A stretch of 64,000 bases of DNA from Phreatobacter sp. (GTDB taxonomy: Bacteria > Pseudomonadota > Alphaproteobacteria > Rhizobiales > Phreatobacteraceae): the NCBI RefSeq assembly GCF_027532945.1, contig NZ_JAPZTZ010000009.1, positions 186,001 through 250,000 of the forward strand. Reading direction: 5' to 3'. The position numbers were made by a program, and so were the translations under genes. This document shows, in pieces, positions 3,073 to 37,166 of this stretch (the stretch's first letter is position 1; each line of letters begins with the position of its first letter). Under the pieces are notes generated by a model. The model ran no database searches, was not told where the DNA came from, and was given only the letters and a program-made list of their open reading frames with translations.

Positions 3073-5994
<2,922 letters not shown>

Positions 5995-20315: not shown

Positions 20316-20340
20316 GGAACGTCTCGGGCGGCGGCACGTT
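20316..20340 (+). promoter_or_regulatory. possible EcfG (general stress) promoter, GGAAC-N16-CGTT
   Basis: GGAAC at 20316-20320 and CGTT at 20337-20340, spaced by 16 bases, match the alphaproteobacterial EcfG consensus. The -10 lies 50 bases before the Arg-rich exported protein start. The site also contains a 7-base inverted repeat GGAACGT / ACGTTCC, so it could instead be an operator. About one such match is expected by chance in 64 kb, so position is the main support. Confidence 0.4.
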
Positions 20341-20390
20341 CCCCTCACGTCCGCCCGCCGCTCGGGCGCCCATCAAGATTGGAGTGACCC

Positions 20391-20660
20391 ATGACCACCA
20401 GACGACAACTTTTCGCCGCCGGTGCCGGATTGGCGGTGCTCGCCGCCGGGTCGACCGCAACCTTAGCCGCCCCGGTCGCCGTAGCGGCCGTCCCCGTTGC
20501 TCCGATCTCGGCGGAGAATCCGCTGGAAATGCATGATAACGTCGGCCCCCGCGGCGATGTCATCCGCCGTGGAAGCCGCGGCTATTACCGCCGTCGCTGG
20601 CGCAACCGCGCCGCCCGCCGTCGCTACTGGCGCCGCCGTGACTGGCGCTCGCGCTATTGA
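20391..20660 (+). CDS. exported Arg-rich protein with P-x-E-M motif (copy A)
   Basis: 89 residues, preceded by GGAGTGA. The N-terminus MTTRRQLFAAGAGLAVLAAG looks like a twin-arginine signal, with likely cleavage after TLA. An Ala/Pro/Val linker follows, then PLEM near residue 47, then a tail with 16 Arg in its last 33 residues mixed with Trp and Tyr. Two further genes (34785-35027 and 35184-35441) share this plan: RR signal, Ala/Pro linker, P-x-E-M, Arg-rich tail. No family is known to me. A strongly cationic mature protein could bind LPS, peptidoglycan or nucleic acid; that is speculation. A possible stress promoter lies upstream. Confidence 0.7.
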   Translation: MTTRRQLFAAGAGLAVLAAGSTATLAAPVAVAAVPVAPISAENPLEMHDNVGPRGDVIRRGSRGYYRRRWRNRAARRRYWRRRDWRSRY

Positions 20661-20753: not shown

Positions 20754-20828
20754 GGGCGGGTAGCTCAGCGGTAGAGCACGTGACTTTTAATCATGTGGTC
20801 GAGGGTTCGATCCCCTCCCCGCTCACCA
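20754..20828 (+). tRNA. tRNA-Lys (anticodon UUU)
   Basis: A complete cloverleaf of 75 bases with an encoded CCA end. The acceptor pairs GGGCGGG with CCCGCTC (one G-U), the D stem is GCTC/GAGC, the anticodon loop is CTTTTAA with anticodon TTT at 20786-20788, and the T arm contains GGTTCGATCC. It lies between the Arg-rich protein gene and the convergent SDR gene. Confidence 0.97.
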
Positions 20829-34269: not shown

Positions 34270-34713
34270 TCAGCTGCCGGCCTGCATGGCCTCAAGCGCG
34301 CTGCGGATGGTCGCCGCGTGTTTCGCCAGAACCTCGCCGTTCTCCATCGCGCCGGTATGCGGGCGGAGGGCGACGCCATCCCAGCGCGGCAGGACGTGGA
34401 CGTGGATGTGGAACACCACCTGGCCGCCGGCGCTCTCGTTGAACTGCTGGATCGTCAGTCCATCGGCCGCCATGGCCTTCTTCACGCCCTTGGCGACGAA
34501 CTGCACCGCCTTGGCGAGCTCGGCGAGGTCGTCAGGGTTGATGTCGAGGATGTTGCGCGCAGCCGCTTTGGGGATCACCAGCACGTGGCCATCGGCACGG
34601 GGCATGATGTCCATGAAGGCCAGCACCTTGTCGGTCTCGTAGACCTTGTGGGCCGGCATCTCGCCGCGCAGGATCTTGGCGAAGACGTTGTTCGGATCAT
34701 AGGCGGCGGACAT
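34270..34713 (-). CDS. HIT family protein
   Basis: 147 residues. The histidine triad FHIHVHVLPRW is intact, with upstream NIFAKI-like NVFAKILRGEMPAHKVYE and FMDIMPRADGHVLVIPK. HIT proteins hydrolyse phosphoramidates or dinucleoside polyphosphates; this layout is the HinT/HIT-like nucleotide hydrolase group. The ATG at 34713 has GAGGGTG upstream, and the longer reading frame adds nothing conserved. Confidence 0.93.
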   Translation of the reverse strand: MSAAYDPNNVFAKILRGEMPAHKVYETDKVLAFMDIMPRADGHVLVIPKAAARNILDINPDDLAELAKAVQFVAKGVKKAMAADGLTIQQFNESAGGQVVFHIHVHVLPRWDGVALRPHTGAMENGEVLAKHAATIRSALEAMQAGS

Positions 34714-34784
34714 GGAAACACCCTCGCGATGAGAACCGCGAGGGTGTCGCAATCCGATGGCGCGGCGTCAAGCGCCGCAGCCGA

Positions 34785-35027
34785 TCACCAGTAGTAGCGG
34801 CGGCGCACGAAGCGACGGCGAACCACAAAGACGCGCCGGCGGCGCACGACGAACACGCGGCGGCGACGCCGACGCACGATGTAGTACTGCATCTCCGTCG
34901 GGGTCGCGGCGGCCGGAGCCACCGGAGCGACGGGAGCGGTGGCAGGCGCGGCCTGGGCCGAACCGGCGGCGGCAGCGACGGCCAGACCGCCGAGGGCGGC
35001 CACGGCGAAAGTGCGACGATGGATCAT
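34785..35027 (-). CDS. exported Arg-rich protein with P-x-E-M motif (copy B)
   Basis: 80 residues. I chose the ATG at 35027 because AGGAG is 8 bases upstream; an ATG two codons earlier is too close to it. The N-terminus MIHRRTFAVAALGGLAVAAAAGSAQA is a signal with a twin-arginine-like start. An Ala/Pro linker leads to PTEM near residue 47 and a tail with 16 Arg in 30 residues, built from two RRRR-VFVV units. It is the middle-sized relative of copies A and C and lies 156 bases downstream of copy C on the same strand. Function unknown. Confidence 0.7.
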   Translation of the reverse strand: MIHRRTFAVAALGGLAVAAAAGSAQAAPATAPVAPVAPAAATPTEMQYYIVRRRRRRVFVVRRRRVFVVRRRFVRRRYYW

Positions 35028-35107
35028 GGGCATTTCTCCTCAGGCAGGCTGCGCATCGGGGGGCACGGTGATGCGCGGGTGACGCGGCGTCAATCCGCTT
35101 CGTTACC

Positions 35108-35120
35108 GACAGTCACTGTC
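35108..35120. promoter_or_regulatory. perfect 6-1-6 palindrome upstream of copy B
   Basis: GACAGTCACTGTC is perfectly palindromic around one base and lies 81 bases before the copy B start. It is a plausible dimer-binding site. No matching regulator can be named from sequence. Confidence 0.4.
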
Positions 35121-35136
35121 ATGTGTTTCTGCCTGT

Positions 35137-35173
35137 CGACGCCCGGCGGCGGAGGCCATGTCGCCGGGCGTCG
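35137..35173 (-). terminator. 12-bp hairpin 3' of copy C
   Basis: Perfect arms CGACGCCCGGCG and CGCCGGGCGTCG with a 13-base loop, 11 bases after the copy C stop. No T tract follows on that strand, so it may end transcription with Rho or protect the transcript 3' end rather than act as a classic terminator. Confidence 0.45.
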
Positions 35174-35183
35174 GAGGGTGGCG

Positions 35184-35441
35184 TCAGGCGCGGCGCGCGG
35201 TGCGGCGGGCCACCCGGCGGGCGCGGCGATGGGCGCGGCGGGCATGGCGGCGAGCATGGCGGCGGCCACGGCGGCGCATCTCGACCGGCTCGCCGGCCTC
35301 CGGCGTCACGGTGGTGGTGGCGGCGGGCTCGATGGCGCTCAGAACCTCGGCGGCGGGAGCGGCCTGGGCGGCAGCGGCGGCGAGGGCGGTCGCGGCGACA
35401 CCAGCACCGAGGGCGGTGAAGAACGAGCGGCGATGCATCAT
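35184..35441 (-). CDS. exported Arg-rich protein with P-x-E-M motif (copy C)
   Basis: 85 residues, preceded by AAGGAG. The start MMHRRSFFTALGAGVAATALAAAAAQA is a twin-arginine-like signal; an acidic/Ala linker leads to PVEM near residue 54 and a tail of short RRxA/RRHA units with 17 Arg in 31 residues. It has no Trp or Tyr in the tail, unlike copies A and B. With copy B it forms a leftward tandem pair. A 10-base palindrome, GAACCGGTTC, lies at 35477-35486 upstream. Function unknown. Confidence 0.7.
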   Translation of the reverse strand: MMHRRSFFTALGAGVAATALAAAAAQAAPAAEVLSAIEPAATTTVTPEAGEPVEMRRRGRRHARRHARRAHRRARRVARRTARRA

Positions 35442-35659
35442 GGTCAATCTCCTTGGGGTTCGAAGCGAAACCGTGTGAACCGGTTCGAGGGTGACTGTGC
35501 TCCTCGCCATCTGAACCGCTCATATCGCCGCGTTTAGGAGCCGTTCATCGCCGCAGGCGTGCGTAACGGGGGGTCGTTCACCGCGGCATCGGGCTGACAT
35601 GATCGGCTCCAATCATGCCCGCCAGCGCAGGGAAAGCCGCACCCGCCGAAGGAGAGCCC

Positions 35660-35987: not shown

Positions 35988-37166
35988 TCAGTCCTGCTCT
36001 TCCATCTCGGCGCGGCGGAACGGCGTCAAAGCGCCGAGTTCATCGATCGCCTCGGCGATATAGCGCCGCTCGCGCTCCAGATAGTCCTCGACCGCCCGGC
36101 GGAAGCCGCGATCGACAATCAGATGGGTCGAATAGGTCGTCACCGGCTTGTAGCCTCGTGCCAGCTTGTGCTCGCCCTGAGCCCCTGCCTCGACGCGCTT
36201 CAGGCCCTTCTCGATGGCAAAGTCGATGGCCTGATAGTAGCAGACCTCGAAATGCAGGAAGGGGTGCTGCTCGACCGCGCCCCAATGGCGCCCATAGAGC
36301 ACCTCCCGGCCGATGAAATTGATGGCGCCGGCAACGTAGCGGCCCTCGCGTTCGGCCATGACCAACAGGATTCGGTCCGCCATCCGCTCACCAATCAGCG
36401 AGTAGAAGGCCCGCGTCAGATAGGGCCGGCCCCATTTGCGCGAGCCGGTATCCATGTAGAACGCGAAGAAGTCGTCCCAGACCGCCTCCGTCAGCTCGCG
36501 CCCGGTGAGGCGGCGGATGGTGATGCCGTTCCCCTCCAGCGCATCGCGCCGCTCACGGCGGATCACCTTGCGCTTGCGGGAGGAGAGGGCGGTGAGGAAA
36601 TCCTCGAAGGTGCCATAGCCCTCATTCTCGAAGTGGAACTGGGTATCGGTGCGCTGCAGATAGCCTGCCTCGCCCATCAGGGCCCATTCGTCCTCCGGGC
36701 AGAAGGTAACGTGAAGCGAGGAGACGCCGGCTTCGGCCGCGACCTGCGCCGCACCCTGAACGAGGGCCGACCGCGCCAGATCCGCACCTTCCCCGGGGCG
36801 GACCAGCAGGCGGCGCCCGGTGGCTGGCGTGAAGGGCACGCTCGCCTGCAGCTTCGGATAGTAGCGCCCGCCGGCGCGCTCATAGGCATCGGCCCAGCCG
36901 GCGTCGAACACGTATTCGCCGCGGGAATGGCTCTTCAGGTAGCAGGGCAGGATGCCGGCGACCGCACCGCCACGCTCGAGAACGAGGTGATGGCCGAGCC
37001 AGCCGGTCTCCCGCACCGCGGATTTCGATTCCTCCAGTGACAGGAAGAAGGCGTGGTCGAGGAAAGGGTCGACGGCACCCGTGGAATCGGCGGCGCAGGC
37101 ATTCCAGTCTCCCGCCGCGATGTCCATGAGGCTGCGGGCGACACGGATGGTGAAGCTGTCAGACAT
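35988..37166 (-). CDS. DUF482 (FemAB/GNAT-like) protein
   Basis: 392 residues matching the COG3146/DUF482 family, a double-GNAT fold related to FemAB aminoacyltransferases. Signatures: FLDHAFFLSLEESKSAV near residue 35, the LPCYLKSHSRGEYVFDAGWADAYERAGGRYYPKLQ block, SSRKRKVIRRERRDA, and CYYQAIDFAIEKGLKRVEAGAQGEHK. No enzymatic reaction has been shown for the family. It precedes gdpD-like and ridA-like genes in the same leftward direction but after a 10-base gap downstream of them. Confidence 0.84.
   Translation of the reverse strand: MSDSFTIRVARSLMDIAAGDWNACAADSTGAVDPFLDHAFFLSLEESKSAVRETGWLGHHLVLERGGAVAGILPCYLKSHSRGEYVFDAGWADAYERAGGRYYPKLQASVPFTPATGRRLLVRPGEGADLARSALVQGAAQVAAEAGVSSLHVTFCPEDEWALMGEAGYLQRTDTQFHFENEGYGTFEDFLTALSSRKRKVIRRERRDALEGNGITIRRLTGRELTEAVWDDFFAFYMDTGSRKWGRPYLTRAFYSLIGERMADRILLVMAEREGRYVAGAINFIGREVLYGRHWGAVEQHPFLHFEVCYYQAIDFAIEKGLKRVEAGAQGEHKLARGYKPVTTYSTHLIVDRGFRRAVEDYLERERRYIAEAIDELGALTPFRRAEMEEQD

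Follow-up and report, generated by a model that had tools for sequence, protein, structure and literature searches.

Three small open reading frames within a 64,000-nucleotide stretch of Phreatobacter DNA (hereafter the window) raise the question of whether such arginine-rich frames are real genes and, if so, what their products do. The three, designated copies A, B and C (Table 1), have the plan ascribed to them by the initial annotation, namely a signal containing two adjacent arginines, an Ala/Pro linker, the motif P-x-E-M and an Arg-rich tail. Counted from the residue after E-M, Arg occupies 17 of 42 tail positions in A, 16 of 34 in B and 17 of 30 in C (the initial annotation set slightly different tail limits); Lys is missing from all three tails. 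The tail of A is of an Arg/Tyr/Trp type, that of B of an Arg/Val/Phe/Tyr type and that of C, which has no aromatic residue, of an Arg/Ala/His type. None of the three proteins contains Cys. A second in-frame ATG is found at 35033 for B, and C has an alternative ATG at 35441.

Table 1. Features of the window and related groups of proteins (L numbers are our own labels)
Feature	Position	Strand	Description
EcfG-type site before A	20316-20340	+	GGAAC-N16-CGTT, 50 bases ahead of the ATG of A
Copy A	20391-20660	+	89 aa; TRRQLF Tat-type signal, Ala/Pro linker, N-P-L-E-M-H junction
HIT-domain gene	34270-34752	-	Pfam HIT, E 5.8e-27; conserved neighbour of the B-C locus
Copy B	34785-35027	-	80 aa; HRRTFA Tat-type signal, linker, T-P-T-E-M-Q junction
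Copy C	35184-35438	-	84 aa; HRRSFF Tat-type signal, linker, E-P-V-E-M-R junction
FemAB-like gene	35988-37166	-	Pfam FemAB_like, E 2.2e-158; conserved neighbour flanking B-C opposite the HIT gene
Second-family proteins of Phreatobacter	L142:1477-1890 (window's genome, contig 12), L127:3699-4091, L116:1264-1893, L137-L139, L145, L150		
Looser same-plan Hyphomicrobiales proteins	L094, L100, L107, L132, L165-L167, L169-L171, L173, L174		

A paralogous family throughout Phreatobacter

A profile, A1, was built from the signal and the P-x-E-M junction (53 rows, 57 positions), and a match was taken as full-length when it started at profile position 1-3 and reached position 54 or beyond. At E <= 1e-7, at least 77 full-length matches are present in 12 of 12 Phreatobacter genomes, that of the window included; the figure is a lower bound, since the first 150 candidates were scored in some genomes. 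Among the candidates scored, each genome has 5 to 8 profile matches. The window's genome, a 4.13 Mb draft, carries six copies. Besides A, B and C, there are two on contig 6 and a sixth at the start of contig 15 (L114:1-400), which begins at the contig end and whose first codons look damaged. With the single query P0003, the best match has an E value of 3.3e-6 or better in 12 of 12 Phreatobacter genomes, its own included, and of only 0.001 in 29 genomes of other families. Most of the counts below refer to 66 members pulled out by regular expression; the other 11 of the 77 share the plan.

No full-length A1 match was detected in 239 non-Phreatobacter genomes of the order (first 26 candidates per genome scored), nor in 384 other genomes of the class (first 17 candidates per genome scored); with this number of candidates, the six copies of the window's genome were still recovered. 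The order search gave a match at E <= 1e-4 in 33 of 249 genomes, 10 of them Phreatobacter. The 25 matches in the other 23 genomes all end at profile positions 29-47 of 57, and 19 of them sit in frames of at least 200 codons. The best (genome G238, E 8.0e-8, profile positions 2-46) belongs to a short protein of the same plan. At E <= 1e-5, the class search of 385 genomes returned the window's genome and two others, whose matches end at positions 29 and 36. Because the outside matches stop where they do, the Tat signal is common to them and the junction is not. They were accordingly rejected as full family members, all of them ending before the junction is covered.

Purifying selection is evident in 13 of 13 ortholog pairs, with overall dN/dS values between 0.03 and 0.40 (A 0.40, B 0.25, C 0.26; leader of A alone 0.58), the pairs being picked by place and similarity and the single values being rough because the sequences are short. 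The ortholog tails differ partly through in-frame indels. The B-C locus has the HIT gene as its neighbour throughout the 12 genomes (in all 11 loci besides the window's own) and the FemAB-like gene in 11 of them; at the twelfth, the contig ends. It holds two copies in nine genomes and has undergone tandem expansion to three copies in one (G007, L050) and four in two (G009, L053; G003, L055). G007 also encodes, close together, two further short Arg-rich proteins that have RR signals and no P-x-E-M (L126:3272-3535 and 3689-3922). Copy A has a divergent DUF2937 gene on one side; on the other come a tRNA-Lys gene (20754-20828) and then a short-chain dehydrogenase gene. Its orthologs in six other Phreatobacter genomes have DUF2937 beside them in six of six cases and the dehydrogenase in five of six. 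The ribosome-binding-site word AAGGAG precedes 24 of the 66 members, where random segments predict 2.4. The codon pattern of A, B and C, whose Arg codons are mostly CGC, resembles that of their neighbours, although the GC3 of A (0.74; B 0.81, C 0.86) lies under the range of 0.81-0.89 seen in five neighbour genes.

High GC and low complexity could suggest GC-driven open frames that yield no protein product. This explanation can hardly be credited at all, being contradicted by the purifying selection, the synteny, the AAGGAG enrichment and the promoter association described below; an origin by chance is rejected on the strength of selection and synteny as well as of the sequence shuffles. The initial view that these are true paralogs and not products of GC chance is thus upheld by their presence in every Phreatobacter genome, their fixed synteny, the selection acting on them and their enrichment in ribosome-binding-site words. 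Copies A, B and C belong to a paralogous family of small, probably secreted proteins that looks old and spans the genus.

The family is undescribed, and the members scanned fall under no Pfam or NCBIfam family. For A, B and C, no match exceeds the cut-off in Pfam, NCBIfam, PHROGs or PADLOC (E <= 0.001 where there is no cut-off), and four further members have no Pfam or NCBIfam family either. The best sub-cut-off matches, TAT_signal (0.0037) and New_glue (0.0079), are both for C. Phage or defence genes were considered and rejected: when A, B, C and two relatives were scanned, neither PHROGs nor PADLOC gave a match at E <= 0.05 (best E values, 0.066 and 0.074). The accessible portions of the literature yielded no description of a Phreatobacter Arg-tail family, and none joining Phreatobacter with twin-arginine.

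The P-x-E-M junction and the tail behind it

All 77 profile matches have [ED]-M-[QRH], a count that leans toward the motif as the profile itself contains the junction. The residue two before [ED]-M is P in 68 of them, T in 4, A in 3 and L in 2; the residue after M, in the 66 members, is Q in 52, R in 13 and H in 1. P-x-[ED]-M-[QRH] occurs in 60 of the 66, against a mean of 0.12 (maximum 2) when the same 66 are shuffled within their own residues, bearing in mind that this list also leans toward the motif since its extraction required [ED]M. The least biased count comes from the B-C syntenic locus, whose members were listed without a motif filter: 29 of 29 have [ED]-M-[QR], and 25 of 29 have P two before it.

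A second Phreatobacter secreted family (Table 1; eight proteins read) shares a P-x-E-M-Q junction ahead of an Arg/Gly stretch. It differs in its Sec-like signal, which has no RR, in a hydrophobic Gly/Ala segment and in its Cys-bounded end, C-W-[IVS]-E-R-R-W-V-D...C. Relatives of one of these proteins are present in 12 of 12 Phreatobacter genomes. The junction is missing from at least three shorter relatives (L148 and two in L152), which have no Arg stretch either. The presence of the junction in a secreted family without RR argues that it has a job of its own, apart from the Tat signal. It may be a recognition or cutting site, a docking site, or a hinge between acidic linker and basic tail that keeps the two apart. 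It is conceivable, though rather doubtful, that P-x-E-M-[QR] constitutes a genus-specific envelope sorting or cutting signal, read by one dedicated enzyme in precursors exported by Tat and by Sec alike. Such a signal would resemble those of the sortase and exosortase substrate classes, but it stands before the tail. If this were true, one enzyme would give Phreatobacter its array of Arg-rich disordered tails, encoded by many genes.

According to the initial annotation, a P-x-E-M kept from genus to genus beside variable tails would support a family. This expectation is borne out in a loosened form only: in the searches made, the strict motif turned up in Phreatobacter alone, and E-x-[VM]-[QRHS] or something similar in other Hyphomicrobiales. 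The 12 looser Hyphomicrobiales proteins (Table 1) share a Tat-type signal, a linker and mostly E-x-[VM]-[QRHS] or something similar before a basic run, with His/Arg/Trp/Tyr tails that often have a closing Cys pair. They differ in having no strict P-x-E-M, and A1 reaches some of them over the first 37-47 of its 57 positions only. A search with one of them found relatives in 11 of 249 genomes from six genera, including one Phreatobacter genome (E <= 1e-6); a search with a second found them in 7 of 249 genomes from two genera (E <= 1e-8). Judged by sequence, the likeness appears to be one of shared plan, and common descent with the family is only possible.

The median net charge is -2 for the linker and +16 for the tail. 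The pooled tails comprise 39% Arg, 12% Gly, 10% Tyr and 9% Trp, with no Lys among 2770 residues, compared with 8.1% Arg and 3.4% Lys in 32 long open reading frames of the window. Gly, Tyr, Trp and Pro together make up about 35%. Two Cys lie within the last 30 residues of 26 of the 66 members, and 23 of the 66 have the end motif R-C-[WF]...G...[VL]-C-R. For one Cys-ended relative, AlphaFold predicts a C-terminal hairpin (residues 83-86/92-95, block mean pLDDT 83-84) and nothing confident in the rest of the chain (mean pLDDT 58.7, with six sequences). On this model, the Cys pair of one subset probably closes a small beta-hairpin. Single-sequence prediction of B gave a mean pLDDT of 54.7, too low to use, and a search of known structures with the Cys-ended subset gave an unconvincing best E value of 0.14. 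A related ending, R-R-C-W-I-N-R-W-G-x-R-V-C, is found on small non-RR secreted proteins of Chelatococcus, Methylopila and Hansschlegelia (L160, L161, L162) and is perhaps a separate C-terminal hairpin element; a further match to R-R-C-W-I-N-R-W-G, in Ruegeria, sits within a large protein.

Three alternatives to the function proposed below turn on these tails. They might belong to matrix or surface-coat proteins that phase-separate or cross-link outside the cell without any specific ligand, forming a biofilm glue, a sheath or a globule coat. The abundance of Gly, Tyr, Trp and Pro, the repeat-like turnover of orthologs through in-frame indels and the frequent Cys pairs are all in keeping with such a role, which is difficult to extend to copy C, whose tail has no aromatics; on balance it is unlikely. 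The same tail of C has an Arg density that amounts to a protamine-like composition, as would suit extracellular or periplasmic nucleic-acid binders involved, for instance, in the capture of environmental DNA. Composition cannot separate nucleic acid from LPS or polysaccharide as the ligand, however, and this alternative seems to us very unlikely.

The third alternative takes P-x-E-M-[QR] to be a processing site, at which an envelope protease frees the tail as a cationic antimicrobial or signalling peptide; the linker would then serve as an acidic pro-segment, holding the tail harmless until the cut. The tails are reminiscent of cationic hairpin and Pro/Arg-rich antimicrobial peptides. The conservation of leader and junction next to very different cationic tails would be accounted for, as would an acidic linker beside a tail of charge +16, the predicted hairpin that ends one relative, and the fact that a second secreted family, under another signal, has the junction too. 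Any likeness to cationic beta-hairpin antimicrobial peptides would lie in the predicted Arg-flanked Cys-x9-Cys hairpin of that one relative, where, unlike in such peptides, it is joined to a long disordered protein; in A, B and C the Cys residues are absent. Competition peptides, moreover, would not be expected to show purifying selection between orthologs or a locus kept, like B-C, in all 12 genomes. One Gly-rich tail is 83 residues long, and no obvious protease or immunity gene figures among the conserved neighbours seen (HIT, FemAB-like, AzlD, DUF2937, dehydrogenase). Release of a peptide is considered distinctly unlikely.

Export signal

RRx[FL] is present in 66 of 66 members, and the signals finish in A-x-A. 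The 66 were collected with an RR filter; a wider listing that allowed KR or RK showed RR only among the evident members. The signals have the RR and the hydrophobic residue two positions on that define Tat signals of the S-R-R-x-F-L-K type, and TatC is encoded in the window's genome (E 4.1e-64, 217.1 bits, above cut-off). Of the curated models, TAT_signal (PF10518) gives 17.6 bits for C, against a cut-off of 22.7, and no match for A or B, and TIGR01409 (NCBIfam) matches none of the three; three of the looser non-Phreatobacter proteins do pass TIGR01409. The hydrophobicity of the h-region (family median 1.73) is not lower than that of two Sec-type signals (1.56 and 1.68) and provides no separation. 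The description of A, B and C as exported thus finds support in the sequence pattern (RRx[FL], A-x-A) and in TatC, but the curated Tat model is not passed.

Like Tat substrates recognised by PF10518 or TIGR01409, the family has an RRx[FL] n-region, an Ala/Gly h-region and A-x-A. It differs in that no folded or cofactor domain is recognised and a disordered Arg-rich tail is found instead. According to one review (PMC6708511), Tat exports unstructured hydrophilic segments of 100-120 residues, export stops at a short hydrophobic stretch, and an scFv with an unstructured tail is not exported. The mature proteins are 46-131 residues long (median 63.5; 66 members, cut sites set by script), and no 15-residue mature stretch among them exceeds a Kyte-Doolittle mean of about 1.5. 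Most members fit the reported limits; the longest exceed 100-120 residues, and some among the 11 extra copies are longer still. From the signals we infer that the family is routed through Tat in practice.

Stress-type promoters and a proposed role

The site that precedes A corresponds to GGAAC-N16-CGTT, given as the EcfG1 motif of R. etli in PMC3892343. It reads on the other strand too (20342-20318; GGAACGT...ACGTTCC, 20316-20342) and, being legible on both strands, may serve the divergent DUF2937 gene as well as A. The same pattern stands before nepR of the window's genome, in a nepR-ecfG pair; NepR scores over its cut-off, and the adjacent sigma-factor-like and response-regulator-like frames were named by reading. 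Within 200 bases upstream, GGAAC-N16-17-CGTT is found for 10 of the 66 members and, among control genes taken from their loci, for 1 of 293 (p 2e-7, a value that overstates independence, as do all such p-values here, because the members are kin). The relaxed form [GT]GAAC gives 15 of 66 versus 2 of 293, and another control set, with a spacing of 15-19, gives 10 of 66 versus 2 of 321; one member, with only 7 upstream bases, could not have shown a site. By eye, the sites are spread over several paralog groups and precede all seven A orthologs, five of which have T for the first G. A site was also seen before 3 of the 12 looser Hyphomicrobiales proteins, all three from one genus.

Copies B and C have no EcfG-type site within 200 bases upstream, nor do 56 of the 66 members, which indicates that stress control is not family-wide. 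Across the whole window, a loose EcfG pattern is not enriched (3 found, 2.63 expected). Simple sE, s32 and s70 patterns are absent upstream of members or found once. Conserved upstream stretches of C (35439-35560; TAAAC..CGATAT..GTTCA) and of B (35028-35150; CAGAAACA..GAAGCG..TTGACG) fit no consensus pattern tried. Going by the EcfG-type sites, the general stress response appears to turn on some copies, A included.

We tentatively propose, as a real possibility that falls short of confidence, that the family consists of Tat-exported, disordered, Arg-rich envelope proteins whose tails glue anionic polymers and which are in part EcfG-induced. A precursor with a twin-arginine signal would be exported by Tat as a short, hydrophilic, unstructured cargo, and the signal would be cut after A-x-A. 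The mature form would then begin with a slightly acidic Ala/Pro linker, continue through P-x-E-M-[QR] and end in a disordered tail; within that tail, binding may fall to Arg, rather than Lys, together with aromatic or Gly residues. Composition suggests that the tails could act outside the inner membrane as a multivalent glue for LPS phosphates, acidic polysaccharide and peptidoglycan. Different tails may suit different targets or conditions, and part of the family, A included, would be raised by the EcfG stress response so as to strengthen the envelope.

Genes of this kind are easily missed as low complexity, yet the profile finds 5 to 8 in each of the 12 Phreatobacter genomes, some at fixed places. 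Their products would offer natural cases of short disordered cargo carried by Tat, and with them the general stress response of alphaproteobacteria gains a concrete set of small exported proteins that can be tested.
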